From positions 434,001 to 498,000 of the forward strand of contig NZ_WJIF01000002.1 in NCBI RefSeq assembly GCF_009647605.1: a stretch of DNA of 64,000 bases. Reading direction: 5' to 3'. Both the position numbers and the translations under genes were made by a program. This stretch comes from Agromyces agglutinans. GTDB lineage: Bacteria > Actinomycetota > Actinomycetes > Actinomycetales > Microbacteriaceae. Below are positions 45,172 through 63,062 of this stretch, piece by piece (position 1 is the first letter of the stretch; every line of letters starts with the position of its first letter). The notes under the pieces are model-generated. The model worked only from the letters and a program-made list of their open reading frames with translations, was not told the origin of the DNA and searched no databases.

Positions 45172-45202
45172 TTGACGCGGCCGCCGTGCGGGTGCGTAAT
45201 AT
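45172..45202 (+). promoter_or_regulatory. Candidate promoter of the GH127-transporter operon
   Basis: TTGACG (45172-45177), then TAATAT (45197-45202) after 19 bp. The -10 hexamer lies inside the first copy of the 12-bp operator-like element, so a bound regulator would block RNA polymerase. Confidence 0.5.
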
Positions 45203-45207
45203 GTCAC
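45196..45207 (+). promoter_or_regulatory. Operator-like 12-mer, copy 1
   Basis: GTAATATGTCAC. Identical to copy 2 (23 bp further) and, in reverse, to the copy ahead of the second operon at 56460. Confidence 0.75.
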
Positions 45208-45218
45208 CCACTATTTCT

Positions 45219-45230
45219 GTAATATGTCAC
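45219..45230 (+). promoter_or_regulatory. Operator-like 12-mer, copy 2
   Basis: GTAATATGTCAC, 23 bp (about two helical turns) from copy 1 and 35 bp before the GH127 start codon. Probable site for the GntR/FadR protein encoded at 55739. Confidence 0.75.
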
Positions 45231-45264
45231 GTCGTACACCGTCGTACCGAACAGGAGCCCGCGC

Positions 45265-47310
45265 ATGTCCCAGCCAGCACCCGCCGTCCGAGACCTCGGC
45301 AGGGCCGCGGCCGTGCGCCCGACCCGCGGCGGTCGCCGCCCGCTCGGCACCGCGGAGGTCGCGATCACGGGCGGATCGCTCGCCGGTTGGCAGGCCCGCA
45401 ACCGCGGCGCGACGGTCGCGCACGTCGTCGAGCAGCTGCGCCTCGCCGGCAACCTCGACAACCTGCGGCGCATCGCCGAGCCGAACGGCCCGGCCGCGAC
45501 CGAGCCGTTCCGCGGTCGCTACCCGTTCCTCGACACCGACGTGTTCAAGACGCTCGAGGGCCTCGCGTACGAGCTGGCGCGCGACGGGGCATCCGGGTAT
45601 GTGGCTTCGCACGGCGGGGCCTCCCGCGACGACGCCGCCGGCGACGAGGCATCCGTTCGCGAGTTCTACGAGGAGGCCGTCGACCTCATCGAGCGCGCGC
45701 AGCGCGACGACGGCTACCTCAACAGCCACTTCCAGGCACCCGACATCGAGCGCGAGCCGTGGTCGGATCTCGCCTGGGGGCACGAGCTGTACAACCTCGG
45801 GCACCTCATCCAGGCCGCGGTCGCGGCCAACCGCCAGCTCGGCGACGACCGGCTGCTGCGCGTCGCGATCGCGTTCGCGGACCTCGCCGTCGAGCGCTTC
45901 GGACCCGACGGCGACCCGCAGGTGTGCGGGCACCCAGAGGTCGAGATGGCGCTCGTCGAGCTCACGCGCGAGACCGGCGACGAGCGCTACCTCGAGCTCG
46001 CGAGCCTGTTCGTCGACCGGCGCGGGCACGGCACGGTCGAGCTGAAGATCTTCCCGGCCGAGTACTTCCAGGACGCCGCGCCGCTGCGCGAGCTCGACTC
46101 GGTCACCGGCCACGCGGTGCGCATGGCGTACCTCGCGGCGGGCGCCGCCGACATCGCCCTCGAGCGCGGCGACGCCGGGCTGCTCGGCGCCCTCGAGCGG
46201 CTCTGGGACGACATGGTCGCCACGAAGCTCTACGTGACGGGCGGCCTCGGCAGCCGGCACTCCGACGAGGCGATCGGCGACCGGTTCGAGCTGCCCAGCG
46301 AGCGCTCCTACAGCGAGACCTGCGCCGCCATCGCCGTGATGCAGTGGGCCTGGCGGATGTACCTCGCCGACGGGCAGGCGAAGTACCTCGACGTGTTCGA
46401 GACCGTGCTCTACAACGCCTACGCGGTCGGCATCTCCGACGACGGTCGCGCGTTCTTCTACGACAACCCGCTGCAGCGCCGCCCCGACCACCAGCAGCGC
46501 ACGGGCGCCGAGACGCACGGCGAGCTGCTGCGACGCGGATGGTTCGTCTGCCCGTGCTGCCCGCCCAACATCATCCGCTGGACGGCGCAGCTGCAGGACC
46601 ACGTCGCCGCGCTCGTCGATGGCGAGCTCCAGCTCGCGCAGTACGCCACGGGGCGCATCGAGGTCGACGGCCTCGCGCTCGAGGTCGAGACCGAGTACCC
46701 GTGGGACGCCGCCGTGCGCATCCGGGTCGAGGCCGCCGGCGAGGACGCGCCGCGCCTCGCGCTGCGCGTGCCGGGCTGGTGCCGCGGGGCAACCGTCACC
46801 GTGAACGGCGAGCGGCTGGGCGGCGACGGCCGCACGGTCGCGCCCGGCTGGGTGCGCATCGACCGCGCGCTCGCCGCGGGCGACGTGATCGAGCTCGACC
46901 TGCCGATACCGGCCCGCGCGCTCGGCGCCGACCCGCGTGTGGACGCGCTGCGCGCCTCGGCCGCGGTCGTGCGCGGACCGATCGTGTACTGCGCCGAGCA
47001 GGTCGACCAGGCGGCCGACCTCGACCTCGTCGTGCTGGACCCGGCCGCCGTGCGGGAGGCATCCGCCGACGTCGACCCGATCACGGCCAACACCGACCCG
47101 TCGACACGGACGCTGCGCGTCATCGCCGGCGCGGTCGCCGCGCCGACGGGCGGGCTCTACCCCGAGTTCGGCGCGGCCGACGGCGCTGACGCGGCCGACG
47201 GCGCCGGGGCGGCCGGCGCTCGCACCCCGACCGAGCTGCGGCTCGTGCCGTACCACCTCTGGGGCAACCGCGGCGCCGACGCCATGCGCGTCTGGCTCCG
47301 CACCGCCTGA
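45265..47310 (+). CDS. GH127 beta-L-arabinofuranosidase (cytoplasmic)
   Basis: 681 residues. GH127 marks: GRYPFLDTDVFKTLEGLAYEL, DDGYLNSHF, the catalytic SETCAAIAVMQWAWR (acid Glu near 351, zinc Cys near 353), and the zinc cysteines in VCPCCPPNIIRW (near 429-431). The family removes beta-L-arabinofuranose, classically from hydroxyproline-linked chains. No signal peptide or anchor is visible, so it should act after uptake. ATG 45265 has AGGAG about 7 nt upstream. First gene of an operon running to 56407; two operator copies precede it. The tail is Ala/Gly/Asp-rich. Confidence 0.93.
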   Translation: MSQPAPAVRDLGRAAAVRPTRGGRRPLGTAEVAITGGSLAGWQARNRGATVAHVVEQLRLAGNLDNLRRIAEPNGPAATEPFRGRYPFLDTDVFKTLEGLAYELARDGASGYVASHGGASRDDAAGDEASVREFYEEAVDLIERAQRDDGYLNSHFQAPDIEREPWSDLAWGHELYNLGHLIQAAVAANRQLGDDRLLRVAIAFADLAVERFGPDGDPQVCGHPEVEMALVELTRETGDERYLELASLFVDRRGHGTVELKIFPAEYFQDAAPLRELDSVTGHAVRMAYLAAGAADIALERGDAGLLGALERLWDDMVATKLYVTGGLGSRHSDEAIGDRFELPSERSYSETCAAIAVMQWAWRMYLADGQAKYLDVFETVLYNAYAVGISDDGRAFFYDNPLQRRPDHQQRTGAETHGELLRRGWFVCPCCPPNIIRWTAQLQDHVAALVDGELQLAQYATGRIEVDGLALEVETEYPWDAAVRIRVEAAGEDAPRLALRVPGWCRGATVTVNGERLGGDGRTVAPGWVRIDRALAAGDVIELDLPIPARALGADPRVDALRASAAVVRGPIVYCAEQVDQAADLDLVVLDPAAVREASADVDPITANTDPSTRTLRVIAGAVAAPTGGLYPEFGAADGADAADGAGAAGARTPTELRLVPYHLWGNRGADAMRVWLRTA

Positions 47311-47356
47311 CGAACTCCACACGCACCATCCGAACCCCACCAAGAAGGAGATCCAC

Positions 47357-49054
47357 ATGAAGAAAGGCACCGTGTTCATCGGGCTGGCGCTGGCCGGCTC
47401 GCTGGCGCTGACGGGCTGCACCGGCGGTTCCGGCGGCTCGGGCGGTTCCGCCTCGGGCGGGCTCAGCGGCGAGCCCGCGACGGGCGGCACGCTCCGCGTG
47501 CTCCAGAACGCCGACTTCTCGCACCTCGACCCCGCCCAGGGCTTCGACGGCGGCGTGAACAACTTCTACCGGCTGATCTACCGCACCCTCACCACGCAGG
47601 GCGCCGGCGAGGGCGCGGAGGGCACCGAGATCGTGCCCGACCTCGCGACCGAACTCGGCACGCCCAACGAGGACAACACCGTCTGGACCTACACGCTGAA
47701 GGACGACGTCTTCTTCGAGGACGGCACGCCCATCACCAGCAAGGACGTGAAGTTCGGCGTCGAGCGCTCGCTCGACCCGTCGATCTCGATCGGCTCGCCC
47801 TACGCGAAGATCGTGCTCGACATCCCCGAGGGCTACGAGGGCTACTACCTCTCGGGCCCGCTCGACTCGATCGAGACGCCCGACGACCGCACGATCGTGT
47901 TCCACCTGAACCAGCCGTACGCCGACTTCGACGCCGTCGTCGGCCAGGCGCCGTTCACGCCGTTCCCGGCCGACGCCGACGTGACGACGACGAGCATCGA
48001 CCAGCAGCCGATCGCCTCGGGCCCGTACCGGGTGACCGAGTACCAGCGCGGCAGCACCCTCGTGCTCGAGCGCAACGAGCACTGGGACCCCGAGACCGAC
48101 GAGGTGCGCACCGCGGCACCCGACTCGTTCGAGTGGACCTTCGGCCTCGACGCCGCGACGATCGACGAGCGCATGATCGCCGGCCAGGGTGAGGACGCCA
48201 ACGCCATCGCGGGCTCGGTCGCGCCCGCCTCGATCGCGCGCATCCAGACGCCCGAGATCCAGAGCCGCACCGTCGCGGGCCTGCAGGGCTGCACGACGTA
48301 CATGGGCCTGAACACCACGAAGCCCGGCATGGACAACGTGCTCGTGCGCCAGGCGATCAACGTCGCGATGGACAAGGAGGCGGTGAAGGATGCCACGGGC
48401 GGCAGCCAGCTCGCCGACATCGCGACCACGATCATGCCGCCGACCGTCGTCGGGCGCGAGGAGTTCGACCTCTACGGCACCGAGGACCAGACCGGCGACC
48501 CCGAGAAGGCCAAGGAACTGCTCGCCGAGGCCGGCTACCCCGACGGCTTCGAGTTCACGCTCGACATCCGCAACCAGCCCAAGATGCAGGCGCAGGCCGA
48601 GGCCGTGCAGCAGTCGCTCGCGAAGGCGGGCATCACGGTGAACTTCAACCTCATCGACACCTCGACCTACTACGAGGTCATCGGCACCCTGTCGCAGCAG
48701 CACGACGCCGCCATCACGGGCTGGTGCCCCGACTGGCCGACCGGTGCGACCTTCCTGCCGCCGCTGTTCGAGGGCTCGCAGATCTTCGAGAAGGGCAACT
48801 CCAACATCGCGCAGCTGAACGACCCGGCGATCAACGAGCGGATGGCCGAGATCCGGCTCATGACCGACGTCGACGAGGCGAACGCCGCGTGGGGTGCGCT
48901 CGACGAGCAGATCATGGAGCTCGCGCCCCAGGTGCCGCTGCTCTACGAGAAGACCGTCATGGTCGTCGGCGACAACATCGCGGGCGCGTTCAGCCACGCC
49001 GGGTTCTCGGGCGGCATCGACTACGTCTCGGTCGGACTGAAGAGCGCCGAGTAG
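47357..49054 (+). CDS. ABC oligopeptide transporter, solute-binding lipoprotein
   Basis: 565 residues. Lipoprotein signal: KKGTVFIGLALAGSLALTGC (lipobox LTGC), then a Gly/Ser linker; mature part is a cluster-C peptide-binding protein (FSHLDPAQGFDG, ATELGTPNEDNTVWTYTLKDDVFFEDGTPITSKDVKFGVERSLDP, YNVA-type middle, DAAITGWCPDWPTG). ATG 47357 has AAGAAGGAG 7 nt upstream. Followed by two permeases and two ATPases, so the cell has the full importer. From the neighbours, the cargo is inferred to be hydroxyproline-rich glycopeptides. Confidence 0.94.
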   Translation: MKKGTVFIGLALAGSLALTGCTGGSGGSGGSASGGLSGEPATGGTLRVLQNADFSHLDPAQGFDGGVNNFYRLIYRTLTTQGAGEGAEGTEIVPDLATELGTPNEDNTVWTYTLKDDVFFEDGTPITSKDVKFGVERSLDPSISIGSPYAKIVLDIPEGYEGYYLSGPLDSIETPDDRTIVFHLNQPYADFDAVVGQAPFTPFPADADVTTTSIDQQPIASGPYRVTEYQRGSTLVLERNEHWDPETDEVRTAAPDSFEWTFGLDAATIDERMIAGQGEDANAIAGSVAPASIARIQTPEIQSRTVAGLQGCTTYMGLNTTKPGMDNVLVRQAINVAMDKEAVKDATGGSQLADIATTIMPPTVVGREEFDLYGTEDQTGDPEKAKELLAEAGYPDGFEFTLDIRNQPKMQAQAEAVQQSLAKAGITVNFNLIDTSTYYEVIGTLSQQHDAAITGWCPDWPTGATFLPPLFEGSQIFEKGNSNIAQLNDPAINERMAEIRLMTDVDEANAAWGALDEQIMELAPQVPLLYEKTVMVVGDNIAGAFSHAGFSGGIDYVSVGLKSAE

Positions 49055-49058
49055 TCGC

Positions 49059-50018
49059 ATGACCACGGTTCCCAGCGAACTGGCGGTCGAGACCGAGGCG
49101 AAGGGGGCACTGCCTTCGGGCGGTGCCCCCACCCCGGCCCGGCGCGTCCTGCACTCGCTCCGCACGTCTCCGGGCGCGATCGCGAGCATCGTGATCATCG
49201 TCGCGATCGCCCTCATGGCGATCCTCGCGCCCGTGCTCTCGGCCATCACCGGCTGGGACCCGTACGAGTTCGACCCGACCGCGATCGACTCCGACCTCGG
49301 CGGGCTGCCGATCGGGCCGCTCGGCGGGGTGAGCGCCGAGCACTGGTTCGGCGTCGAGCCCGGCAATGGGCGCGACATCTTCATCCGCGTCGCCTACGGC
49401 GCGCAGGTGTCGCTGCTGATCGCGGTCAGCGCGACCCTCGTGACGACCACGATCGGCGTCGTGCTGGGCATGATCGCCGGATACTTCGGCGGCATCGCCG
49501 ACCAGGTGATCTCGCGCGTCATGGACTTCCTGATGGCGTTCCCGACGCTGATCTTCATGATCGCGCTGCTCTCGGCGCTGCCGGCGGGCAACCGGCCCGC
49601 GCTGCTCGTGATCGTGCTGAGCATCTTCGGCTGGCCGTACACGGCGCGCATCATCCGGGGGCAGACGATGTCGCTGCGCAACAGCGAGTTCGTCGAGGCC
49701 GCCCGCGCCTCGGGCGCGAAGCCGCTGCGCATCGCGTTCCGCGAGGTGCTGCCGAACCTGCGCGGCACGATCATCGTGCTCGCGACCCTCGCGGTGCCGG
49801 GCTACATCGGCACCGAGGCGGGGCTCTCGTTCCTGGGCGTCGGCGTGACCCCGCCGACCCCGTCGTGGGGTCAGATGATCTCGACCGCGGTCGGCTGGTA
49901 CGCGGTCGACCCGATGTACTTCCTGATCCCCGGCACGTTCCTCTTCCTCACGGTCTTCGCGTTCACCGTCCTCGGCGACCACCTGCGCAAGGCCCTCGAC
50001 ACGGGAGACGCCGCCTGA
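49059..50018 (+). CDS. ABC oligopeptide transporter permease (DppC/OppC type)
   Basis: 319 residues, about six helices. N-terminal helix ASIVIIVAIALMAILAPVLSAIT; the EAA loop that contacts the ATPase is EAARASGAKPLRIAFREVLPN; YIGTEAGLSFLGVGVTPPTPSWG is typical of DppC. ATG 49059 starts 4 nt after the binding-protein stop. Its stop overlaps the next start by one base (TGATG). DppC-before-DppB order is less usual. Confidence 0.93.
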   Translation: MTTVPSELAVETEAKGALPSGGAPTPARRVLHSLRTSPGAIASIVIIVAIALMAILAPVLSAITGWDPYEFDPTAIDSDLGGLPIGPLGGVSAEHWFGVEPGNGRDIFIRVAYGAQVSLLIAVSATLVTTTIGVVLGMIAGYFGGIADQVISRVMDFLMAFPTLIFMIALLSALPAGNRPALLVIVLSIFGWPYTARIIRGQTMSLRNSEFVEAARASGAKPLRIAFREVLPNLRGTIIVLATLAVPGYIGTEAGLSFLGVGVTPPTPSWGQMISTAVGWYAVDPMYFLIPGTFLFLTVFAFTVLGDHLRKALDTGDAA

Positions 50019-51013
50019 TGCTCTTCTACCTGTTGCGGCGCGTGCTCGCCGGCATCCTCGTCCTCTTCCTCATCTCGCTGTTCACGTTCGCGATCTTCTT
50101 CTGGCTCTCGCCCGACCCGGCGGTGCAGATCTGCGGCAAGACCTGCACGCCCGAGCGCATCGACCAGATCCGCTCGCAGCTGGGCCTCGACCTGCCCTTC
50201 CTCCAGCAGTACTGGCAGTTCGTGAGCGGCATCTTCGTCGGCCGCACCTACGGCGAGGGCGCCGGCGCCATCACCTGCGCGGCGCCGTGCCTCGGCTTCA
50301 GCTTCCAGACGAACCAGTCGGTGACCGACATGATCGCCGACCGCATGCCGGTCAGCGTCACGGTCGCCGTCGGGGCCGCGGTGCTCTGGCTGCTCGCGGG
50401 CGTCGGCGGAGGCCTCCTCAGCGCCGTCAAGCAGGGCACCGGCTGGGACCGCACGGTCATGTTCGGCGCGCTCGCGGGCATCAGCCTGCCCAACTACTTC
50501 GTCGCGCTGCTGCTGCAGTACGTGCTGGTCGTGCAGCTCCAGTGGCTGCCGTTCCCGCACGCCGCGAGCTTCACCGAGGACCCGGTCGCCTGGTTCCAGG
50601 CGTACCTGATGCCGTGGCTCGTGCTCGCGTTCGGCTACGCGGCGATGTACTCGCGCATCGTGCGCACGAACGTCATCGACACGCTCGGGCAGAACTTCAT
50701 GCGGACGGCGAGGGCCAAGGGCCTCGACCAGTCGCTCGTCATGCGCCGGCACGCGCTGCGCCCATCGCTCACGCCGGTGGTGACGCTGTTCGGCATGGAC
50801 TTCGCGGGACTGCTCGGCGGCGCGCTGATCACCGAGACGGTGTTCGGCCTGAACGGCGTCGGCAAGCTCGCCGCCGACTCGATCACGAAGAACGACCAGC
50901 CGGTGATCATGGGCGTCACGCTCCTCGCCGGCCTGCTCGTCGTCATCGGCAACATGGTCGTGGATGTCGCGTACACGGGTCTCGACCCGCGAGTGAGGGT
51001 GAGGTCGGCATGA
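50018..51013 (+). CDS. ABC oligopeptide transporter permease (DppB/OppB type)
   Basis: 331 residues, about six helices. N-terminus LFYLLRRVLAGILVLFLISLFTFAIFFW, EAA loop RTARAKGLDQSLVMRRHALRPSLTPVVT, ending NMVVDVAYTGLDPRVRV, all DppB hallmarks. A cysteine-rich periplasmic insert (CGKTCTPERIDQ, GAITCAAPCLG) is larger than usual. ATG 50018 overlaps the previous stop by one base; the open frame to 49865 is not used. Confidence 0.93.
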   Translation: MLFYLLRRVLAGILVLFLISLFTFAIFFWLSPDPAVQICGKTCTPERIDQIRSQLGLDLPFLQQYWQFVSGIFVGRTYGEGAGAITCAAPCLGFSFQTNQSVTDMIADRMPVSVTVAVGAAVLWLLAGVGGGLLSAVKQGTGWDRTVMFGALAGISLPNYFVALLLQYVLVVQLQWLPFPHAASFTEDPVAWFQAYLMPWLVLAFGYAAMYSRIVRTNVIDTLGQNFMRTARAKGLDQSLVMRRHALRPSLTPVVTLFGMDFAGLLGGALITETVFGLNGVGKLAADSITKNDQPVIMGVTLLAGLLVVIGNMVVDVAYTGLDPRVRVRSA

Positions 51014-51873
51014 GCATCACGTCCGCAGCACGGACCATCTCGATCCCGGTCGTCGGGGCGCCGCTGCTCGAGGTCGAGCACCTCAGCGTGAGCTTCCCGA
51101 CCTCGTCGGGCCCGGCGACGGTCGTGCGCGACGCGTCGTTCCGGGTCGACCAGGGCACGACGCTCGGCATCGTCGGCGAGTCGGGGTCGGGCAAGTCGAT
51201 GACCTCGCTCGCCGTCATGGGACTGCTGCCGCGCGGCGGCACGGCGACGGGCAGCGTGCGACTCTTCGGCCACGAGCTGCTCGGCCGCACCGACCGCGAG
51301 CTCCGGCGCATCCGCGGCGACCGCATCGCGATGGTGTTCCAGGACCCGCTCTCGTCGCTGAACCCGTACTACACGATCGGCGTCCAGATCACCGAGGCGT
51401 ACCGCGCCCACCGCGGCGGCAGCCAGGCGGCTGCGCGCAAGGTCGCGATCGAGGCGCTCGAGCGCGTGCGCATCGCCGACCCCGACCGGCGGATCGACCA
51501 CTACCCCCACCAGTTCTCGGGGGGCATGCGCCAGCGCATCATGATCGCGATGGCGATCTGCCTCGAGCCCGACCTGATCATCTGCGACGAGCCCACCACG
51601 GCGCTCGACGTCACGGTGCAGGCGCAGATCCTCGACCTGCTGGCCGACCTGCAGCGCCAGACCGGCACCGGCATGGTCTTCATCACGCACGATCTCGCCG
51701 TGGTCAGCCGCGTCGCCGACGACGTGCTCGTCATGAAGGACGGCGACGAGGTCGAGCGCGGCACGACCGAGCAGATCTTCACGGCGCCGAGGGCCCCGTA
51801 CACGCGGGCCCTGCTCGACGCGCTGCCGCGCATCGACGACCCGTTCGAGACCCTGAAGGGGGTGCAGGCATGA
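51010..51873 (+). CDS. ABC oligopeptide transporter ATP-binding protein (DppD/OppD type)
   Basis: 287 residues. Walker A GESGSGKS, Q-loop MVFQDPLSSLNPYYTIGVQI, signature FSGGMRQR, Walker B LIICDEPTTALDVTVQ, H-loop FITHDLAVV, and the oligopeptide C-terminal segment APYTRALLDALPR. ATG 51010 overlaps the DppB stop by 4 nt, and its own end overlaps the next ATPase by 4 nt. Confidence 0.95.
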   Translation: MSITSAARTISIPVVGAPLLEVEHLSVSFPTSSGPATVVRDASFRVDQGTTLGIVGESGSGKSMTSLAVMGLLPRGGTATGSVRLFGHELLGRTDRELRRIRGDRIAMVFQDPLSSLNPYYTIGVQITEAYRAHRGGSQAAARKVAIEALERVRIADPDRRIDHYPHQFSGGMRQRIMIAMAICLEPDLIICDEPTTALDVTVQAQILDLLADLQRQTGTGMVFITHDLAVVSRVADDVLVMKDGDEVERGTTEQIFTAPRAPYTRALLDALPRIDDPFETLKGVQA

Positions 51874-55674: not shown

Positions 55675-55738
55675 GGTCGCGCACGGTTGGTACGGAGCGC
55701 ACGGATCGCACCGAGCGCACGGAGAAGAGGGGCCGGCG

Positions 55739-56407
55739 ATGAGCCTGCAGATGATCAAGCCGCCCGAGCAGCGCAGCCTGCGTTCGCACGTCGAGCGCGC
55801 GCTGTCGGCCGCGATCATCTCGGGCGAGCTCGCGCCGGGCACGCTCCTGACCGTGCCGACGCTCGCGACGCAGTTCGACGTGTCGGCGACGCCCGTGCGC
55901 GAGGCCATGCTCGACCTCGAGAGCCGCGGATTCGTCGAGCCGGTGCGCAACAAGGGCTTCCGGGTGACCGAGGTCAGCGACGACGCGCTGCGCGAGCTGG
56001 TCGAGGTGCGCCAGCTCCTCGAGCCCCCCGCGATGGAACGGCTCGCCACGATGTTCCCGGCCGACCGCATGGACGAGATGCGGGCGGTGGCGGAGCAGAT
56101 CGTCGAGGGCGCCGCGTCGGGCGACCTGCAGGCCTACCTCGCGGCCGACCTCGAGTTCCACCTCTCGCTCACGCAGATGCTCGGCAACCGGCTGCTGGTC
56201 GACATCGTGAGGGACCTCCGCTCGCGCACGCGCCTGGTGGGCCTCGCCACCATGCTCGAGTCCGACCGGCTCGGCGAGTCGGCCGCCGAGCACCTGCTGC
56301 TGCTCGACCACTTCGCCGCGGGCGACGCCGAGGCGGCCCGCGAGCTCATGCACCGGCACATCCACCACACCCTCGGCTGGTGGGCGGGGAACCCCGAGCG
56401 GGAGTAG
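55739..56407 (+). CDS. GntR-family (FadR subgroup) transcriptional regulator
   Basis: 222 residues. N-terminal wHTH LRSHVERALSAAIISGELAPGTLLTVPTLATQFDVSATPVREAMLDLESRGFVEP; C-terminal FCD domain with metal-ligand residues typical of FadR-type sensors (EVRQLLEP, DLEFHLSL, EHLLLLDHF, HRHIHHTL). ATG 55739 has GGAGAAGAGGGG upstream. Last gene of the GH127-transporter operon and just before the second operon, so it probably controls both through GTAATATGTCAC sites, with hydroxyproline or a breakdown product as ligand (inferred). Confidence 0.9.
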   Translation: MSLQMIKPPEQRSLRSHVERALSAAIISGELAPGTLLTVPTLATQFDVSATPVREAMLDLESRGFVEPVRNKGFRVTEVSDDALRELVEVRQLLEPPAMERLATMFPADRMDEMRAVAEQIVEGAASGDLQAYLAADLEFHLSLTQMLGNRLLVDIVRDLRSRTRLVGLATMLESDRLGESAAEHLLLLDHFAAGDAEAARELMHRHIHHTLGWWAGNPERE

Positions 56408-56413
56408 CGGGCA

Positions 56414-56428
56414 CCCCCGGAACGGGGG
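56414..56428 (+). terminator. Terminator-like hairpin after the GntR gene
   Basis: CCCCCG-GAA-CGGGGG, 7 nt after the stop codon. Short but G/C-only, probably separates the two operons. Confidence 0.5.
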
Positions 56429-56459
56429 CGTCGGGGGCGCTTCCATTCGCAATAAATGT

Positions 56460-56471
56460 GTGACATATTAC
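56460..56471 (-). promoter_or_regulatory. Operator-like 12-mer, copy 3 (reversed)
   Basis: GTGACATATTAC, exact reverse complement of copies 1 and 2. Includes -10-like CATATT with TTCCAT 17 bp upstream, and lies 44 bp ahead of the start codon at 56515. Confidence 0.78.
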
Positions 56472-56514
56472 TGAGGGCGGCAGGGTGCCGCGGTCGGCGA
56501 CCGAGGAGGGGCGC

Positions 56515-57702
56515 ATGGGATACGACGTCGCGGTCATCGGCGCCGGCATCGTCGGCGCGGCCTGCGCGCGTGCCCTCGCCGCCGAGGGTCTGCGCGTCGT
56601 CGTGCTCGAGCGCGACGCGGCCGCATCGGGCACCACCGGCCGCGGCGAGGGCAACCTCCTCGTCTCCGACAAGGGTCCCGGCCCTGAGCTCGTGCTCGCC
56701 CAGCGAGCGGCCGCCCTCTGGCCCGGCACCGTCGCCGCCCTCGCCGACGAGCTCGGCCCCGACTTCCCCGCCGTCGAGTACGAGCCCAAGGGCGGGCTCG
56801 TCGTGGCGACGACCGAGCAGGGTGCGGAGCCGCTCGCCGCGTTCGCGCAGACCCAGCGCGCCGCCGGTGTGGACGCCCGCGTGATCGGCGTCGACGACGC
56901 CCTCGCCCTCGAGCCGCACCTCGCGCGCGGCATCACCGCGGCCGTGCACTACCCCGAGGACGCGCAGGTGCAGCCCGTCGTCGCGACCGAGGCGCTGCTC
57001 GCCTCGGCCCGCCGGCACGGCGCCGAGGTGCGCACGGGCGTCGAGGTCACGGGCGCGCTGCGCGATGCGCAGGGCCGGCTCCGCGGCGTCGCGACGACCG
57101 CAGGCGAGATCGCGGCCGACCGGGTCGTGCTCGCCGCCGGCCCCTGGACCGGCGAGATCAGCTCGCGCCTCGGCGCCCACCTGCCCGTGCGCCCGCGCCG
57201 CGGCATGGTGCTCGTCACGACGCGCATGCCGCACCGCGTGTTCCGCAAGGTCTACGACGGCGACTACTTCGGCGCGACCCAGTCGAGCGACGCGGCGCTG
57301 CAGACCTCGAGCGTCGTCGAGTCGACGGCCGCGGGCACCGTGCTCGTCGGCTCGAGCCGCGAGCAGGTCGGCTTCGACGACCGGATGCGGGTCGAGGTGC
57401 TGCGCCAGGTCGCAGCCAAGGCGCTCCGGCTGTTCCCCTTCCTCTCGGGCGCGAGCGTCATGCGCGCCTACGGCGGGTTCCGCCCCTACATGCCCGACCA
57501 CCTGCCCGTGATCGGCGCCGACCACCGGCTCGACGGGCTCTGGCACGCGACCGGCCACGAGGGAGCCGGCATCGGGCTCTCGCTCGCGACGGCCGAGCTC
57601 ATCGCGGCGGGCATCGCCGGCCGTGCCGCCCCGATCGACCCGTCGCCGTTCTCGCCGCAGCGGGCGAGCCTCGCTCCCCATCTGGCCGAGGAGGCCGCAT
57701 GA
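56515..57702 (+). CDS. FAD-dependent oxidoreductase, catalytic subunit of a D-hydroxyproline dehydrogenase
   Basis: 395 residues of the DAO/glycine oxidase-like family: YDVAVIGAGIVGAACARALAAEG, GTTGRGEGNLLVSDKG, RPRRGMVLVTTRMP, and the C-terminal motif YGGFRPYMPDHLPVIG with GHEGAGIGLSLATAELIA. Next come a [2Fe-2S] protein and a second FAD/NAD(P) subunit, the same composition as the three-subunit D-Hyp dehydrogenase of Pseudomonas. Reaction: D-Hyp to 1-pyrroline-4-hydroxy-2-carboxylate. ATG 56515 has GAGGAGGGG 4 nt upstream; the open frame from 56485 lacks a ribosome site. The stop overlaps the next start (ATGA). Confidence 0.88.
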   Translation: MGYDVAVIGAGIVGAACARALAAEGLRVVVLERDAAASGTTGRGEGNLLVSDKGPGPELVLAQRAAALWPGTVAALADELGPDFPAVEYEPKGGLVVATTEQGAEPLAAFAQTQRAAGVDARVIGVDDALALEPHLARGITAAVHYPEDAQVQPVVATEALLASARRHGAEVRTGVEVTGALRDAQGRLRGVATTAGEIAADRVVLAAGPWTGEISSRLGAHLPVRPRRGMVLVTTRMPHRVFRKVYDGDYFGATQSSDAALQTSSVVESTAAGTVLVGSSREQVGFDDRMRVEVLRQVAAKALRLFPFLSGASVMRAYGGFRPYMPDHLPVIGADHRLDGLWHATGHEGAGIGLSLATAELIAAGIAGRAAPIDPSPFSPQRASLAPHLAEEAA

Positions 57703-58022
57703 GCGCCCGCATGCTGCCGGCCGGGTCCGACCCGATCCGCCCCGGCCCGACCGCACCCGTCACCATCCACGTCGACGGCGAGCCCGTGACGGGCGCCGCC
57801 GGCCAGACCATCGCCGGCATCGTGCTCGCGAACGGCCGCCTCGCGTGGCGGCGCACCTCGTCAGACGGGCGTCCGCGGGGCCTGTTCTGCGGCATCGGGG
57901 TCTGCTTCGACTGCATCGTGACCGTGAACGGCGACCGTGACGTGCGCGCCTGCCAGCGCCGCGCGTGCGACGGCGACGTGGTCTCCTCGCAGCACGACGA
58001 GCTGCCGGAGGTGCACCGATGA
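57699..58022 (+). CDS. [2Fe-2S]-binding small subunit of the amino-acid dehydrogenase
   Basis: 107 residues. The plant-ferredoxin-like cluster motif is visible: GLFCGIGVCFDCIVTVNG (C-x4-C-x2-C) and the fourth Cys in VRACQRR. N-terminal beta-grasp VTIHVDGEPVTGAAGQTIAGIVL. Counterpart of HcnA/SoxA-type gamma subunits that pass electrons between the two flavoproteins. Both ends overlap neighbours by 4 nt, so tight translational coupling in a three-subunit enzyme. Confidence 0.92.
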   Translation: MSARMLPAGSDPIRPGPTAPVTIHVDGEPVTGAAGQTIAGIVLANGRLAWRRTSSDGRPRGLFCGIGVCFDCIVTVNGDRDVRACQRRACDGDVVSSQHDELPEVHR

Positions 58023-59530
58023 CCGAGGTGCTCGTCGTCGGCGCCGGTCCGGCCGGTCTCGCCGCCGCGCTCGCGGCCCGCGCGCGCGGCGCCGCCGTCA
58101 CCCTGCTCGACGCGGCCGACGAGCTCGGCGGCCAGTACTGGCGCCACCTGCCCCCGCAGCGCCCGGCCGCGCGCGAGCGCGCGCTGCACCACGGCTGGGC
58201 CCGCTTCGAGCGGATGCGCCGCGAACTCGAGGCCGACCCGGGTTGCGAGGTGCTCACGAGCGCGCAGGTCTGGGCGATCGAGCCGGCCGACGACGACGGT
58301 CGCGTCGGAGCCGACGGTCGCCTCATCGACGGCGGTGATCGCGCGGTCGCCGGCGCCGCGGCGCGGGCCGCGCTCGTCGTGCACGTGCTGGTCGGCCCCG
58401 TCGACGGCGCGGATCGCGTGGCGCGGAGCATCCGCCCCGACGCGCTCGTGCTCGCGACGGGCGCGCACGACCGCACCCTCCCGTTCCCCGGCTGGGACCT
58501 GCCCGGCGTCTTCACCGCGGGCGCGGCGCAGGCGCTCGCGAAGGGCGAGCGCGTCGCCGTGGGCGAGCGCGTCGTCGTCGCCGGAGCGGGGCCGTTCCTG
58601 CTCCCCGTCGCGGCGTCGCTCGCGGCGACGGGCGCCCGGGTCGTCGGCGTGCATGAGGCCAACCGACCCGGACGGCTGGCCGCGGGCTGGCTGCCCCGCC
58701 CGTGGGCGCTCATCGGCGCCGTCGGCAAGGCGGGCGAGCTCGCGGGCTACGCGTGGAACCACGTGCGCCACCGCATTCCGTACCGCACCGGCAGCGCGGT
58801 CGTCGCGGCGCACGGCACCGACCGCGTCGAGGCGGTCACGATCGCCTCGCTCGACCGCGACTGGCGGCCCATCGCCGGCACCGAGCGCCGCGTCGAGGCC
58901 GACGCGGTCTGCGTCAGCCACGGGTTCACGCCACGGCTCGAACTGCCCATCGCGGCCGGCTGCGCGATCACCTCCGACCGGTTCGTCGTCGTGGACGCAG
59001 GCCAGGGCACGAGTGTCGCCGGCGTCTACGCGGCGGGCGAGATCACCGGCATCGGCGGCGTCGACGCCGCGCTGGCCGAGGGAGCGGTCGCCGGTCACGT
59101 CGCCGCGGGCGGCTCGCCGACCGACGCCGAGATCTCGCGCGAGATGCGCGCCCGGCGCACCACCACCGACTTCGCCGGCCGCATCGAGGCGTCCCACGGC
59201 ATCCGCTCCGGCTGGACGGCGTGGCTCGACGACGACACGCTCGTCTGCCGCTGCGAGGAGGTGCCGTACGGGCGCCTGCGCGCGACCGGCGACGCGACCT
59301 GCTCCACGGGCCTGCGCTCGCTCAAGCTCACGACCCGAGCCGGCCTCGGCATCTGCCAGGGCCGGATCTGCGGACGCACCGTCGAGCACCTGCTCGGCGG
59401 CGACGGCGGCTTCGCCGACGGCGTCAGCACCGACCGACGTCCGATCGCCGCACCCGTTCGCCTCGCCGAACTCGCCGGCGCCTCGGCACCGAACCGCCCC
59501 GAAGGGCATCTACGAAAGGAAACCCCATGA
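58019..59530 (+). CDS. NAD(P)/FAD-dependent oxidoreductase with BFD-like [2Fe-2S] domain, large subunit
   Basis: 503 residues. VLVVGAGPAGLAAALAARARG and LLDAADELGGQYWR (FAD), ATGAHDRTLPFPGWDLPGV, a second GAGPFLLPVAASLAATG, then a C-terminal bacterioferritin-associated-ferredoxin-like domain: VCRCEEVPYGRL and TRAGLGICQGRICG. HcnB/SoxA-alpha type. With the two preceding genes it forms the dehydrogenase. ATG 58019 overlaps the [2Fe-2S] gene by 4 nt. Confidence 0.92.
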   Translation: MTEVLVVGAGPAGLAAALAARARGAAVTLLDAADELGGQYWRHLPPQRPAARERALHHGWARFERMRRELEADPGCEVLTSAQVWAIEPADDDGRVGADGRLIDGGDRAVAGAAARAALVVHVLVGPVDGADRVARSIRPDALVLATGAHDRTLPFPGWDLPGVFTAGAAQALAKGERVAVGERVVVAGAGPFLLPVAASLAATGARVVGVHEANRPGRLAAGWLPRPWALIGAVGKAGELAGYAWNHVRHRIPYRTGSAVVAAHGTDRVEAVTIASLDRDWRPIAGTERRVEADAVCVSHGFTPRLELPIAAGCAITSDRFVVVDAGQGTSVAGVYAAGEITGIGGVDAALAEGAVAGHVAAGGSPTDAEISREMRARRTTTDFAGRIEASHGIRSGWTAWLDDDTLVCRCEEVPYGRLRATGDATCSTGLRSLKLTTRAGLGICQGRICGRTVEHLLGGDGGFADGVSTDRRPIAAPVRLAELAGASAPNRPEGHLRKETP

Positions 59531-60459
59531 CCGACCGCTTCGACCTCGGCGGCGTCGTCGTCGCCACGACGCTCGCGTTCAAGGAAGACGCCGCCGCCCC
59601 GGCCGGACTCGCCGTCGACTACGACCGGTTCGCCGAGCACTGCGACTTCCTGATCAGCAACGGATGCCGCGGCGTCGGCCCGAACGGATCGCTCGGCGAG
59701 TACTCCTCGCTCACCGACGAGGAGCGCCGCAAGGTCATCCAGGTCGCCGTCGAGGCGGTCGGCGGGCGCGGCCTCGTCGTCGCCGGCGTGCACGGCGTCG
59801 GCTGGCACCAGGCCGTGAAGTGGGCCGAGTACGCCAAGGAGGACGGCGCCGACGGCGTGCTCGCGCTGCCCCCGACGATCTACCGCGCCAACCGCGCCGA
59901 GGTCATCGAGCACTACACGCGCATCAACGAGGTCGGCCTGCCGATCATGCTCTACAACAACCCGATCGACACCAAGGTCGACCTCACGCCCGACCTCGTC
60001 GCCGAGCTCTTCGAGCTCGAGAACGTCGTCGCGATCAAGGAGTTCACGACCGACATCCGCCGCGTGCTCGAGATCCAGGAGCTCTGCGGCATCGACGTCA
60101 TCGCGGGCGCCGACGACCTGCTCTTCGAGTCGCTCGTGGTGGGTGCGACGGGCTGGTTCGCGGGCTACCCGAACGCCTTCCCGAAGGAGGCCGTCGAGAT
60201 CTACAACCTGGTGCAGGCCGGCGAGATCGCCGCCGCGCGCGACCTCTACAAGGGCCTCGTCGCGGTGTTCCGCTGGGACTCGAAGACCGAGTTCGTGCAG
60301 GCCATCAAGCTGTCGATCGACATCGCCGGCCAGAGCTACGGTGGACCGACCCGTCCGCCGCGCGGCCCGCTCTCGGCCGAGCACGAGGCGATCGTGCGGC
60401 GTGACACGCTGAAGGCACTGGAGTACGCGGCGAGCCGCGACCTCGTCTCGGCCCGCTGA
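59527..60459 (+). CDS. DHDPS/NAL-family lyase, probable 1-pyrroline-4-hydroxy-2-carboxylate deaminase
   Basis: 310 residues. Class I aldolase fold with Schiff-base K171 (VVAIKEFT), Tyr143 in LYNNPIDT, and GPNGSLGEYSSLTDEER near residue 55 where the usual GTTGE is replaced. This substitution plus the neighbourhood (epimerase, dehydrogenase, KGSA dehydrogenase) supports the deaminase of hydroxyproline breakdown, which makes 2-oxoglutarate semialdehyde + NH3. Other DHDPS-like lyases cannot be excluded. ATG 59527 overlaps the large-subunit stop by 4 nt. Confidence 0.87.
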   Translation: MTDRFDLGGVVVATTLAFKEDAAAPAGLAVDYDRFAEHCDFLISNGCRGVGPNGSLGEYSSLTDEERRKVIQVAVEAVGGRGLVVAGVHGVGWHQAVKWAEYAKEDGADGVLALPPTIYRANRAEVIEHYTRINEVGLPIMLYNNPIDTKVDLTPDLVAELFELENVVAIKEFTTDIRRVLEIQELCGIDVIAGADDLLFESLVVGATGWFAGYPNAFPKEAVEIYNLVQAGEIAAARDLYKGLVAVFRWDSKTEFVQAIKLSIDIAGQSYGGPTRPPRGPLSAEHEAIVRRDTLKALEYAASRDLVSAR

Positions 60460-60491
60460 CGGGCCGAACCGAACCGGCAGGAGATCCACCC

Positions 60492-61493
60492 ATGCGTTCG
60501 AACCGAGTGATCACGGCGGTCGACTCGCACACCGAGGGGATGCCGACGCGCGTCGTGACCGGCGGCGTCGGCGTCATCCCCGGCGCGACGATGAACGAGA
60601 AGCGCCTGCACTTCATGGCGAACCTCGACGACCTTCGGCTCTTCCTCATGAACGAGCCGCGCGGGCACGCCGCGATGAGCGGGGCGATCCTCCAGCCGCC
60701 GACGCGCCCCGACTGCGACTGGGGCGTCGTCTACATCGAGGTGTCGGGCTGCCTGCCGATGTGCGGGCACGGCACCATCGGCGTCGCGACCGTGCTCGTC
60801 GAGACGGGCATGGTGCCGGTGGTGGAGCCCGTGACCGAGATCCGGCTCGACACCCCGGCCGGTCTCGTGATCGCGCGCGTGCAGGTGACCGACGGCCACG
60901 CCGACTCGGTCACCATCGAGAACGTGCCGAGCTACGTCGACGTGCTGGATGCCTCGGTCGAGGTGCCCGGCTACGGGTCGGTGCCGTACTCCATGGCGTT
61001 CGGCGGCAACTTCTACGCGATGGTCGACCTCGACGACGTGGGCCTGCCCTTCGACCGTTCCCGGCAGCAGGAGATCCTGAACGCCGGTCTCGCCATCATG
61101 GATGCGATCAACGAGCAGGCGCCGCCGAGGCATCCCACCATCGACGGACTCGACCACTGCCACCACGTCGAGTTCATCGCCCCGGGCTCGAACGCGCAGC
61201 TCTCGCGGCACGCGATGGCGATCCATCCCGGATGGTTCGACCGGTCGCCGTGCGGCACGGGGACCTCGGCGCGCATGGCCGAGCTCTGGGCCCGCGGCGA
61301 GCTCGCGCTCGACACCGACTTCGTCAACGAGTCGTTCATCGGCAGCCGGTTCGTCGGCCGACTCGTCGCCGAGACCGAGATCGACGGTCGGCCGGCCGTG
61401 ATCCCGACCATCACCGGGCGCGCGTGGGTGACGGGCATGGGCCAGTACCTGCTCGATCCGAGCGATCCCTTCCCCACCGGCTTCCAGTTCTAA
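60492..61493 (+). CDS. Proline racemase-family epimerase, probable 4-hydroxyproline 2-epimerase
   Basis: 333 residues. Both catalytic cysteines are present: C91 in PMCGHGTIG and C254 in SPCGTGTSARMAELWARG, so it is an epimerase/racemase and not a dehydratase (which has Thr/Ser at the first position). N-terminus VITAVDSHTEGMPTRVVTGG is standard. Converts trans-4-hydroxy-L-proline to cis-4-hydroxy-D-proline. ATG 60492 has CAGGAG 8 nt upstream. Confidence 0.92.
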   Translation: MRSNRVITAVDSHTEGMPTRVVTGGVGVIPGATMNEKRLHFMANLDDLRLFLMNEPRGHAAMSGAILQPPTRPDCDWGVVYIEVSGCLPMCGHGTIGVATVLVETGMVPVVEPVTEIRLDTPAGLVIARVQVTDGHADSVTIENVPSYVDVLDASVEVPGYGSVPYSMAFGGNFYAMVDLDDVGLPFDRSRQQEILNAGLAIMDAINEQAPPRHPTIDGLDHCHHVEFIAPGSNAQLSRHAMAIHPGWFDRSPCGTGTSARMAELWARGELALDTDFVNESFIGSRFVGRLVAETEIDGRPAVIPTITGRAWVTGMGQYLLDPSDPFPTGFQF

Positions 61494-61529
61494 GCGCGCC
61501 ACGCACCTCGCACGCACCAGGAGACCCGC

Positions 61530-63062
61530 ATGACCGAATCCCAGGACCTCGCCGCCGTCGCGGCCGCCGCATCCGCCGCAGCCGGCCCGTTCGCCGACGC
61601 GTCGCCGGCCGACCGGGCGCGCGCCCTCGTCGCCGTCGCCGACGCGCTCGACGCCGCGGCCGACGAGCTCGTGTCGATCGCGATGCGCGAGACGGGGCTC
61701 GGCGAACCGCGCCTGCGCGGCGAGCTCACCCGCACGAGTGTCCAGCTGCGGCTCTTCGCCGAGACCGTGCTCGACGGCACGTACCTCGACGTGCGCATCG
61801 ACGACGCCGACCCCGACTTCGTGCTCGGCGCGCGCGCCGAGGTGCGGCGGATGCTGGTGCCGGTCGGCCCGGTCGTCAACTTCGCGGCCTCGAACTTCCC
61901 GTTCGCGTTCTCGGTCGCCGGTGGCGACACCGCGTCGGCGCTCGCCGCCGGATGCCCCGTCGTGCTCAAGGCCCACCCGGGCCACCCCGAGCTGTCGCGC
62001 GCGACGGCCGCGACCGTGCGCGACGCGCTCGCGGCGGCCGGACTGCCCGACGGCGTGTTCCAGCTGGTCGAGGGCGTCGAGGCGGGTGTCGCGATCCTGC
62101 AGGACCCGCGCATCCGCGCCGCCTCGTTCACGGGTTCGCTGCGCGCCGGCCGGCACCTCGCCGACCTCGCCGCCGCGCGGCCGTCGCCGATCCCGTTCTA
62201 CGGCGAGCTCGGCAGCGTGAACCCCGTCTTCGTCACGCGCGCCGCGATCGACGAGCGCGCCGCCGAGCTCGCGGCCGGGTACGTCGCGAGCGTGAGCGGC
62301 TCCGCCGGGCAGCTGTGCACGAAGCCCGGCGTCGTGTTCGTCCCCGCCGGAGCCGAAGCCGCCGACCGGCTCGTCGCACGCGTCGCCGAGGCGGCGGCCG
62401 GCCTCGCCGAGCACCGGCTGCTGAACCCCGGCATCACCCGCGGCTTCGCGGCACGCCGCGGCGAGGTGCTCGGCGCGCCCGGCGTCGTCGCGGTCGCCGA
62501 GGGCGCACTGCGCGTCGACGCCGACGAGCAGGGCTGGGCGACGCCGACGATCCTGCGGGTGTCGCTCGACGACTTCCGTGCGTCGCGGGAGCAGCTGGCC
62601 GAGGAGGCGTTCGGACCGCTGTCGATCCTCGTCGAGGTGCCCGACGGCGCCGACCTCGCCGACCTCGTCGACGAGTTCCTCGAGGGCGAGCTCACCGCCA
62701 CGGTGCACCTGGGTGCCGACGAGGCATCCGGAGCCGAGCATGATGCGAGCCGCGCGCTCGTGCGTGCGCTGGCCGACCGCGTGGGCCGCGTGCTCGTCGG
62801 CGGCTGGCCGACCGGCGTCGCCGTGACGCCCGCGATGCAGCACGGCGGACCGTGGCCCGCGACGACGGACGCCGGCGGATCAACGTCGGTCGGCACGGCT
62901 GCGATCTCGAGGTTCCTGCGGCCGGTCGCGTACCAGTCGGTGCCCGACGCGCTGCTGCCGCCCGCGTTGCAGGACGCGAACCCGTGGAACGTGCCGCAGC
63001 GCCGGTCGCCGGCCGGGCAGTCGCGCGGATGGGGCGCGACGGCCGCCGCGGCGATCGCCTGA
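61530..63062 (+). CDS. Aldehyde dehydrogenase, probable 2-oxoglutarate semialdehyde dehydrogenase (NADP+)
   Basis: 510 residues, the KGSADH type rather than the usual ~480-residue ALDH: VPVGPVVNFAASNFPFAFSVAGGDTASALAAGCPVVLKAHPGHP, the catalytic E in YGELGSVNPVF and Cys263 in SAGQLCTKPG, C-terminus TPAMQHGGPWPATT and FLRPVAYQ. Final step: 2-oxoglutarate semialdehyde to 2-oxoglutarate. ATG 61530 is preceded by CAGGAGA. Last gene of the catabolic operon; convergent with the APC permease. Confidence 0.93.
   Translation: MTESQDLAAVAAAASAAAGPFADASPADRARALVAVADALDAAADELVSIAMRETGLGEPRLRGELTRTSVQLRLFAETVLDGTYLDVRIDDADPDFVLGARAEVRRMLVPVGPVVNFAASNFPFAFSVAGGDTASALAAGCPVVLKAHPGHPELSRATAATVRDALAAAGLPDGVFQLVEGVEAGVAILQDPRIRAASFTGSLRAGRHLADLAAARPSPIPFYGELGSVNPVFVTRAAIDERAAELAAGYVASVSGSAGQLCTKPGVVFVPAGAEAADRLVARVAEAAAGLAEHRLLNPGITRGFAARRGEVLGAPGVVAVAEGALRVDADEQGWATPTILRVSLDDFRASREQLAEEAFGPLSILVEVPDGADLADLVDEFLEGELTATVHLGADEASGAEHDASRALVRALADRVGRVLVGGWPTGVAVTPAMQHGGPWPATTDAGGSTSVGTAAISRFLRPVAYQSVPDALLPPALQDANPWNVPQRRSPAGQSRGWGATAAAAIA

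Follow-up and report, generated by a model that had tools for sequence, protein, structure and literature searches.

A candidate HypR-type regulon linking a GH127 enzyme and an oligopeptide importer to hydroxyproline catabolism in Agromyces agglutinans

The window, a stretch of 64,000 nucleotides from Agromyces agglutinans (Microbacteriaceae), contains at positions 45196..63062 two adjacent operons with fifteen genes, all named genes being open frames on the + strand. The uptake operon is preceded by two exact copies, on the + strand, of the 12-base HypR-like operator GTAATATGTCAC (45196..45207, conserved in relatives, and, 23 bases beyond it, 45219..45230). It opens with a predicted GH127 beta-L-arabinofuranosidase (45265..47310) and continues with a peptide-type solute-binding lipoprotein (47357..49054; lipobox LTGC, found by eye), OppC-type and OppB-type permeases (49059..50018 and 50018..51013), OppD-type and OppF-type ATPases (51010..51873 and 51870..52778), a PIP-like alpha/beta-hydrolase (52775..54196) and an aminopeptidase P (54193..55674). 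A HypR-like GntR/FCD regulator (55739..56407) and a third operator copy on the - strand (56460..56471) lie upstream of the catabolic operon. This encodes the DAO (beta), [2Fe-2S] (gamma) and Pyr_redox/Fer2_BFD (alpha) subunits of a predicted D-hydroxyproline dehydrogenase (56515..57702, 57699..58022 and 58019..59530), a putative pyrroline-4-hydroxy-2-carboxylate deaminase of the DHDPS family (59527..60459), a putative Cys-Cys 4-hydroxyproline 2-epimerase of the proline racemase family (60492..61493) and an aldehyde dehydrogenase that, by context, is probably an alpha-ketoglutaric semialdehyde dehydrogenase (61530..63062). Pfam assignments agree with the sequence-only reading for all genes that it named (GH127, SBP_bac_5, OppC, OppB, two Opp ATPases, alpha/beta hydrolase and AMP_N+Peptidase_M24 over the uptake operon; GntR+FCD, DAO, Fer2_4, Pyr_redox/Fer2_BFD, DHDPS, Pro_racemase and Aldedh over the rest). 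Genes are tightly spaced, with 4-base overlaps or gaps of at most about 40 bases, except for 64 bases upstream and 107 bases downstream of the regulator gene. The fifteen genes include no secreted protease or alpha-arabinofuranosidase, and a scan of both intergenic stretches gave no sigma-70 promoters.

Five of the catabolic genes form the same set in the same order as SCO6289-6293 of Streptomyces coelicolor, the DAO subunit gene standing in the place of SCO6289. According to the available text of PMC6608401, deletion of the epimerase in that organism abolishes growth on L-Hyp while growth on proline is kept. The epimerase here carries both catalytic cysteines (C91 and C254). The claim that the last four functions make up the trans-4-hydroxyproline pathway is strongly supported by gene set, gene order and catalytic residues; the activity of each enzyme is a prediction.

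The catalytic, middle and C-terminal domains of the GH127 protein score 269.6, 64.9 and 75.2 bits, all above the Pfam cut-off, and its catalytic residues (E335, E351, C353, C431 and C432) are kept in 54 of 54 aligned sequences. Residues were matched using what we take to be the zinc-binding residues of HypBA1 other than Cys417. The hallmarks given in the available text of PMC8106489, namely a Cys nucleophile, a Glu acid/base and a (Cys)3-Glu zinc site, are all found (C431, E335, E351, C353, C432). Because no signal peptide is seen by eye, the enzyme is probably cytoplasmic. It is about equally near to a Geobacillus GH127 and to HypBA1, so its sugar specificity is not set by sequence; we predict that it releases L-arabinose from Ara-Hyp. 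The Xanthomonas GH127 frees arabinose from Ara-Hyp but, in the available text, does not use Ara3-Hyp (PMC6085000), and a single GH127 may therefore fail on some arabinosides. The sole NCBIfam match, aceric acid hydrolase, reached 343 of 950 bits and was rejected as an identity for this protein.

The importer is of the SBP_bac_5/Opp oligopeptide type and not of a sugar type, as judged by Pfam, and both proline-directed peptidase genes follow its genes with 4-base overlaps. Aminopeptidase P would cleave X-Pro or X-Hyp bonds, and the PIP-like hydrolase is probably a prolyl/hydroxyprolyl aminopeptidase. The latter had been called a proline iminopeptidase; Pfam places it among the alpha/beta hydrolases, its likeness to curated PIPs (S33) is remote (39 bits against a cut-off of 259.75), and among solved proteins the plant protein AT3g61540 stands closest to it. 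A scan anchored on PIP, biased toward this locus and giving no prevalence, showed among the best 80 of 571 loci that a close binding protein is accompanied by GH127 in 23 of 27 named loci; one of the other four stops at a contig edge. In the binding-protein tree, from which duplicate loci had been removed, the clade counts 44 rows, of which 40 have GH127, but the tree took in loci fetched for having GH127, so the evidence is limited to the 23 of 27 named loci. Among the loci listed, a related importer occurs together with Hyp genes, but with no GH127, in Microbacterium sp. SMR1 and in Paeniglutamicibacter, indicating that the importer family does not require glycosylated cargo. Also among the loci listed, PIP in Rhizobium-group loci adjoins a GH127 (33%) and sugar ABC genes.

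When up to 2 mismatches are allowed, the three operators of the locus are found against 0.31 expected, a count reached in 2 of 100 shuffles, for a repeat that was first noticed by eye and tested afterwards. The whole 3.9 Mb genome has no further exact copy of GTAATATGTCAC. One copy with 1 mismatch lies elsewhere in it (C20:437646), with no hydroxyproline-related genes recognised by eye within 4 kb. Compared with the HypR site footprinted in S. coelicolor, the operator agrees in 9 of 11 bases, and the regulator has all six FCD metal-site residues of that HypR (E95, D137, H141, E184, H185 and H207). Generic GntR palindromes (TNGTNNNACNA and similar) were little found upstream of the operons. We infer that this GntR protein binds the three predicted operators, and the proposal of one regulator for both operons is supported by their shared exact sites.

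In the relative G079 the operator stands before both operons although about 1.16 Mb separates them; G003 retains GH127 and importer but its best operator match has 3 mismatches. Across 249 Microbacteriaceae genomes, which are related so that the counts are not independent, 46 of 51 GTAATRTGTCACNC sites lie within 20 kb of an epimerase-family gene, while the reversed-pattern control gave 2 sites. The operator is a ready marker of Hyp regulons in Microbacteriaceae. Further afield, TGCAATGTCAC, bound by S. coelicolor HypR in EMSA (PMC6608401, available text), occurs at the GH127 start in 6/6 Kribbella loci having GH127 and in 1/3 Streptomyces loci. The S. coelicolor-type site was found before GH127 in 0/9 Nonomuraea-group loci, and the exact sites found in Kribbella are not located at the epimerase gene.

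The sequence-only reading had proposed searching other Microbacteriaceae for the gene set. In the same 249 genomes, again related and not independent, 18 of the 20 close GH127 genes have a gene of the proline racemase family at most 20 kb away, compared with 2 of 112 other GH127 genes. This count used 132 GH127 places down to an E value of about 1e-55, weaker matches being left out, and 83 epimerase-family places over the Pfam cut-off, minus one short fragment in G085. All 20 genomes with close GH127, which span 8 genera, have the proline-racemase family, as do 38 of 229 others. Such conservation excludes chance association, and gene order is also conserved in the relatives' loci. In a class sample of 394 genomes, close GH127 outside the family was seen by eye only in G376 and G450, drafts in which the GH127 and epimerase-family genes are on different contigs; in G529, of the same genus, the two are linked at 14 kb (by eye).

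Arabinose was expected to be handled elsewhere, and an L-arabinose isomerase is indeed encoded at C22:246243. In the relative G003, araB-araD-araA continue from the GH127-importer-peptidase operon, which points to arabinose as the released sugar. In two other relatives (G179 and G101) the same Hyp genes are accompanied by a sugar-type importer and by a GH127 of a different subfamily. Linkage, shared operators, the araBDA fusion in a relative and this second version support the connection of GH127 and peptide import with hydroxyproline use that the earlier interpretation proposed.

The catabolic steps, HypR repression and cutting of Ara-Hyp by GH127 have all been shown in relatives. The S. coelicolor HypR regulon shares the five catabolic genes in order and a GntR/FCD regulator with the six metal-site residues, and its operator agrees in 9 of 11 bases; in the available text it further takes in a 2-oxoglutarate dehydrogenase/decarboxylase gene and one for an M9 collagenase (PMC6608401), and the present locus adds the GH127-importer-peptidase operon. 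The HypBA1/HypBA2/HypAA system of Bifidobacterium longum likewise draws on plant Hyp-rich glycoproteins, uses ABC import and has a GH127 that is cytoplasmic and shares the catalytic residues. There, secreted GH43/GH121 enzymes liberate a disaccharide taken up by a sugar importer, and the available texts do not mention Hyp use (PMC7263609, PMC8106489); unlike it, the present locus combines an oligopeptide-type importer with Hyp catabolism and has no GH43/GH121 among its fifteen genes. Xanthomonas euvesicatoria XeHypBA1/BA2/AA also includes a GH127 liberating arabinose from Ara-Hyp, but the available text mentions neither a linked peptide importer nor Hyp catabolism, and the word 'transporter' is absent from the main text (PMC6085000). 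A GntR repressor and Hyp genes are likewise found in the Proteobacteria HypR regulon, which extends upstream to collagenases in Alteromonadales, but GH127 or an oligopeptide importer is not named in the available text (PMC5343134). Finally, a proline racemase neighbourhood study describes trans-4-Hyp loci with epimerase, DAO, DHDPS, ALDH and nearby transport genes, but 'glycosid' is absent from its main text (PMC4113996). The parts are known, and of the earlier suggestion that the system is undescribed, what holds in the literature searched is that the joined GH127-importer-Hyp system seems new; the catabolic operon and the type of regulator had already been described. The 12-base operator shared by both operons is a new observation.

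The genes, catalytic residues, conserved linkage and shared operators are sequence-level observations, and we consider it likely that the locus is a HypR-type regulon with an uptake arm specialised for arabinosylated plant peptides. Other enzymes would release short Hyp glycopeptides from extensin-like glycoproteins outside the cell; the lipoprotein would bind these and the Opp-type ABC transporter import them whole. In the cytoplasm, GH127 would strip beta-linked L-arabinofuranose off hydroxyproline, after which aminopeptidase P and the PIP-like hydrolase would liberate Hyp and Pro. Epimerase, three-subunit dehydrogenase, deaminase and aldehyde dehydrogenase would turn trans-4-Hyp into 2-oxoglutarate with release of ammonia, arabinose would enter the isomerase route elsewhere in the genome, and the GntR/FCD repressor, on its three operators, would switch both operons given Hyp or a product. 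The arabinosylated cargo, the intact import and the order of cutting are predictions. CLE/PSY-type signal peptides carry a Hyp-triarabinoside that would need a beta-arabinofuranosidase only. Tentatively, and with somewhat less than even confidence, we suggest dedicated uptake of intact O-arabinosylated plant peptides, perhaps such signal peptides, with sugar and peptide dismantled intracellularly under the control of a single hydroxyproline repressor.

The cargo might instead be free Hyp-arabinosides (one Hyp with 1-3 arabinoses), the two peptidases serving other peptides. G179 and G101, with their sugar-type importer, indicate that Hyp-glycoside alone can be cargo in relatives, and Ara-Hyp itself is a substrate of the known Xanthomonas GH127 (PMC6085000, available text). 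We find this unlikely here, as the importer is of oligopeptide type with the peptidase genes overlapping its genes by 4 bases, and PIP is present in 18 of 19 loci selected for GH127, the available stretch of the remaining one (L036) stopping within the importer genes. Quite improbable, in our estimation, is an importer for bare proline/hydroxyproline peptides (e.g. from collagen or gelatin) beside a GH127 that serves arabinose oligosaccharides entering otherwise. It would suit L077 and L121, where among the loci listed PIP and Hyp genes accompany a related importer but GH127 is absent, and the collagenase under HypR control in S. coelicolor (PMC6608401, available text). However, the operon begins with GH127, behind a Hyp-type operator, and this gene accompanies this binding protein in most of the PIP-found loci counted above; the genome's second GH127 (L040) adjoins sugar-type importer genes (by eye). 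Collagen use through an M9 collagenase was rejected, since 0 of the 58 genomes having the epimerase family has one above cut-off (one weaker match was seen).

For the second operon, a substrate such as proline, trans-3-hydroxyproline or another imino acid in place of trans-4-Hyp seems a very remote option. The epimerase reaches similar NCBIfam scores, each below cut-off, for proline racemase (349 of 556 bits), 4-Hyp epimerase (PRK13971, 336 of 376 bits) and t3Hyp dehydratase, and among the matches listed none of the catabolic proteins exceeds an equivalog cut-off. Specificity for 4-Hyp goes with a non-Phe residue at site 1, His at site 4 and Cys/Tyr at site 5 (PMC4364671); site 5 is Ile244, typical of neither HypE nor ProR, and Ser63 (site 1, located by alignment) and His225 fit the hydroxyproline type (2 of 3), in addition to the Cys-Cys pair. 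In the available text of PMC4113996, DAO, DHDPS and ALDH neighbours are a sign of the 4-Hyp route and an ornithine-cyclodeaminase-family gene is a sign of the t3Hyp route; the former are present and none of the fifteen genes belongs to the latter family. A role of the catabolic operon in trans-4-Hyp use is strongly supported by this gene content together with a gene order that matches the S. coelicolor operon, whose function was confirmed by deleting the epimerase (PMC6608401, available text).

The reading as a HypR-type regulon with a glycopeptide uptake arm ties together HypR regulons (free Hyp, collagen), GH127 chemistry (sugar import) and plant Hyp-rich glycoproteins, so far separate fields. 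Three defined operators and one importer offer a direct handle on the use of arabinosylated plant peptides. If the reading is true, plant-associated and soil Actinomycetota would be able to use the sugar as well as the protein of extensin-like material, and if signal peptides are indeed taken up, plant glycopeptide signals would be removed as food by an import strategy distinct from deglycosylation outside the cell.

The fifteen genes that the sequence-only reading had listed were all found in the window with the families it gave them, in a Microbacteriaceae genome of 3.9 Mb. Judging from gene spacing they likely form two transcription units, one running from GH127 to aminopeptidase P, the other starting with the dehydrogenase and closing with the aldehyde dehydrogenase; the regulator gene sits between them. 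The order DAO, Fer2_4, Pyr_redox/BFD, DHDPS, Pro_racemase is that of SCO6289-6293, the S. coelicolor L-hydroxyproline (Hyp) operon, in which, according to the available text of PMC6608401, epimerase deletion abolishes growth on L-Hyp while growth on proline persists. The window's epimerase has cysteines C91 and C254, Ser at position 63, where proline racemases have Phe, and His at position 225, suggested by the authors of PMC4364671 as specific for Hyp epimerases; its Ile244 is found in neither class in the accessible part of that paper. The aldehyde dehydrogenase is nearest to the NADP-type enzymes 3v4c and 1eyy, and its presumed substrate is assigned from gene context.

The window's GH127 carries E351, C353 and C432, which correspond to the probable zinc-site residues of B. 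longum HypBA1. In the same alignment its E335 matches Glu322, the acid/base residue of that enzyme, and its C431 matches Cys417, the nucleophile (excerpts of PMC8106489), and all five residues are conserved in 54/54 distinct aligned GH127 sequences. By eye, no signal peptide was evident on the GH127, while a lipobox was present in the SBP_bac_5 binding protein (window 47357-49054), whose nearest solved structure is 2wok, oligopeptide binding protein 2 of clavulanic acid biosynthesis. A Xanthomonas GH127 is described, in the portion of PMC6085000 available, as preferring Ara-Hyp and not using Ara3-Hyp. The same genome encodes a second GH127 (44%; G000:C12:623682-625619, locus L040) outside the window, 144 kb away; its neighbours, named by eye, include a LacI-type regulator and a sugar-type ABC permease, which is the usual setting.

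The sequence-only reading had proposed looking for the same gene set in other Microbacteriaceae, and there the association recurs. Across 249 Microbacteriaceae genomes, identity separates the full-length GH127 genes into a close group at 58-100%, with 20 genes in 20 genomes of 8 genera, and the rest at 50% or less. An epimerase-family (proline-racemase family) gene lies within 20 kb of 18/20 close GH127 genes versus 2/112 others, and anywhere in the genome for 20/20 close-GH127 genomes versus 38/229 others. The p-values are inflated by relatedness among genomes. Gene order agrees: among 19 loci chosen for close GH127, 18 contain the PIP-like alpha/beta-hydrolase (PIP) and 17 a close epimerase, the linked Hyp operon being absent from those of genomes G079 and G003.

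The GntR/FCD regulator has counterparts (E95, D137, H141, E184, H185 and H207) of all six S. coelicolor HypR metal-site residues, Glu96, Asp138, His142, Glu185, His186 and His208 (available text of PMC6608401), at a constant shift of one. It would bind the three candidate operators, copies of GTAATATGTCAC at window 45196, 45219 and 56460; the genome has no further exact copy. One single-mismatch copy lies outside the window (G000:C20:437646-437657, L131; reversed control, 0); no Hyp-related genes were recognised around it by eye, its neighbours being small and unrelated-looking. The window operator is identical at 9/11 bases to the footprinted HypR site, TACAATGTCAC; the others bound are reported as TGCAATGTCAC (PMC6608401, in part). 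A search of the 249 genomes for GTAATRTGTCACNC gave 51 sites, spread over 36 of them, against 2 for the reversed control. For 46 of these sites an epimerase-family gene lies no more than 20 kb away; of the other five, one precedes the GH127 operon of G079, which is unlinked, and four belong to genomes where no epimerase-family match passes the cut-off. At least one site is present in 19/20 close-GH127 genomes, and in 13/38 genomes with the epimerase family but without close GH127. The exception, G003, has the 12-mer with a different flank at its Hyp operon and only a 3-mismatch site at its GH127. In L042 and L043 (G148 and G244) the operator precedes what looks by eye like a symporter of Na+:alanine type. 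A second gene of the proline-racemase family is close by, as is, in L043, one resembling ornithine cyclodeaminase, and the regulon may therefore include trans-3-Hyp use. In Homoserinimonas (L114) the operator precedes another set of binding protein, Opp and PIP genes (30-57%), which lacks GH127 and may be a version for bare Hyp peptides.

In a wider sample, close GH127, binding protein, Opp and PIP occur together in 23 of the best 80 of 571 PIP-anchored loci (Kribbella 6, Nonomuraea group 9, Sphaerisporangium 1, Streptomyces 3, Microbacteriaceae 4). Among these 80 are 27 named loci whose binding protein is close; 23 of them have GH127, and the other four are L057, L073 (which ends at a contig edge), L077 and L121. 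GH127 genes that accompany peptide importers group in a single clade, separate from those that accompany sugar importers (support 98/100). A search of the 80 loci for T[AG]C[AC]ATGTCAC gave 14 hits, against none for the reversed control. The site falls at the extrapolated start of GH127 in all six Kribbella loci that have this gene and in the Streptomyces MP131-18 locus, but at that start in 0/9 Nonomuraea-group and 0/2 other Streptomyces loci. Ten Kribbella genomes plus Streptomyces MP131-18, all 11 with an epimerase-family gene, contain 13 occurrences of GTGCAATGTCAC in 8/11 genomes (reversed control, 0); judged by coordinates, 9/11 sites in the six Kribbella genomes with GH127 belong to the GH127 locus. 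Since no exact site was found at the epimerase gene in the ten Kribbella genomes scanned, their Hyp operon may have a variant site or other control. In L094 (Streptomyces sp. MP131-18) the epimerase gene after the DHDPS gene matches in two separate pieces only and may be broken or misread. Clavibacter michiganensis CFBP8019 (L089) has the whole locus including operators; hyp homologues have been called unique to Xanthomonas among plant pathogenic bacteria (PMC6085000, in part). In a Rhizobium group (L076, L079, L080, L081, L092, L096, L103, L108, L112) a GH127 (32-34%) accompanied by sugar ABC genes lies close to PIP, possibly an independent counterpart in Rhizobiales. Three Micromonospora loci (L072, L075, L084) place PIP, aminopeptidase P and Hyp catabolic genes beside a gamma-glutamyltransferase-like gene (by eye), and GH127 was not seen in the stretch compared.

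Variant loci in relatives bear on the cargo. In G003 the GH127-importer-PIP-aminopeptidase genes continue into ribulokinase (753 bits; cut-off 583), ribulose-phosphate epimerase (362; 251) and arabinose isomerase (784; 622), and the Hyp genes are on a separate contig (L037). In G179 and G101 another GH127 subfamily and sugar-type importer genes (type judged by eye in G101) adjoin the same Hyp genes, and in G179 the motif is also present in the interval that separates the epimerase gene from the sugar-type binding-protein gene leading to GH127.

A literature search, mostly of titles and abstracts of papers available without subscription (including parts of PMC4113996, PMC7263609, PMC5343134 and PMC9147577), found no description of GH127, an oligopeptide importer and Hyp catabolism joined. 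Extensin use by Latescibacteria was inferred from GH127, with Hyp catabolism unmentioned in the accessible part of PMC4454575. The GH127 promoter has a repressor site of FCD type, and outside the locus the genome has no exact copy of it; no uptake system other than this importer was therefore seen to be under the Hyp-type switch. No other argument for Hyp in the importer's cargo is as strong. That the cargo also brings arabinose is argued by the araBDA fusion of G003 and by GH127 itself. Because neither a secreted protease nor an alpha-arabinofuranosidase is among the fifteen genes, the system appears to depend on already-cut peptides. The best-fitting cargo would be Hyp with one to three beta-linked arabinoses.
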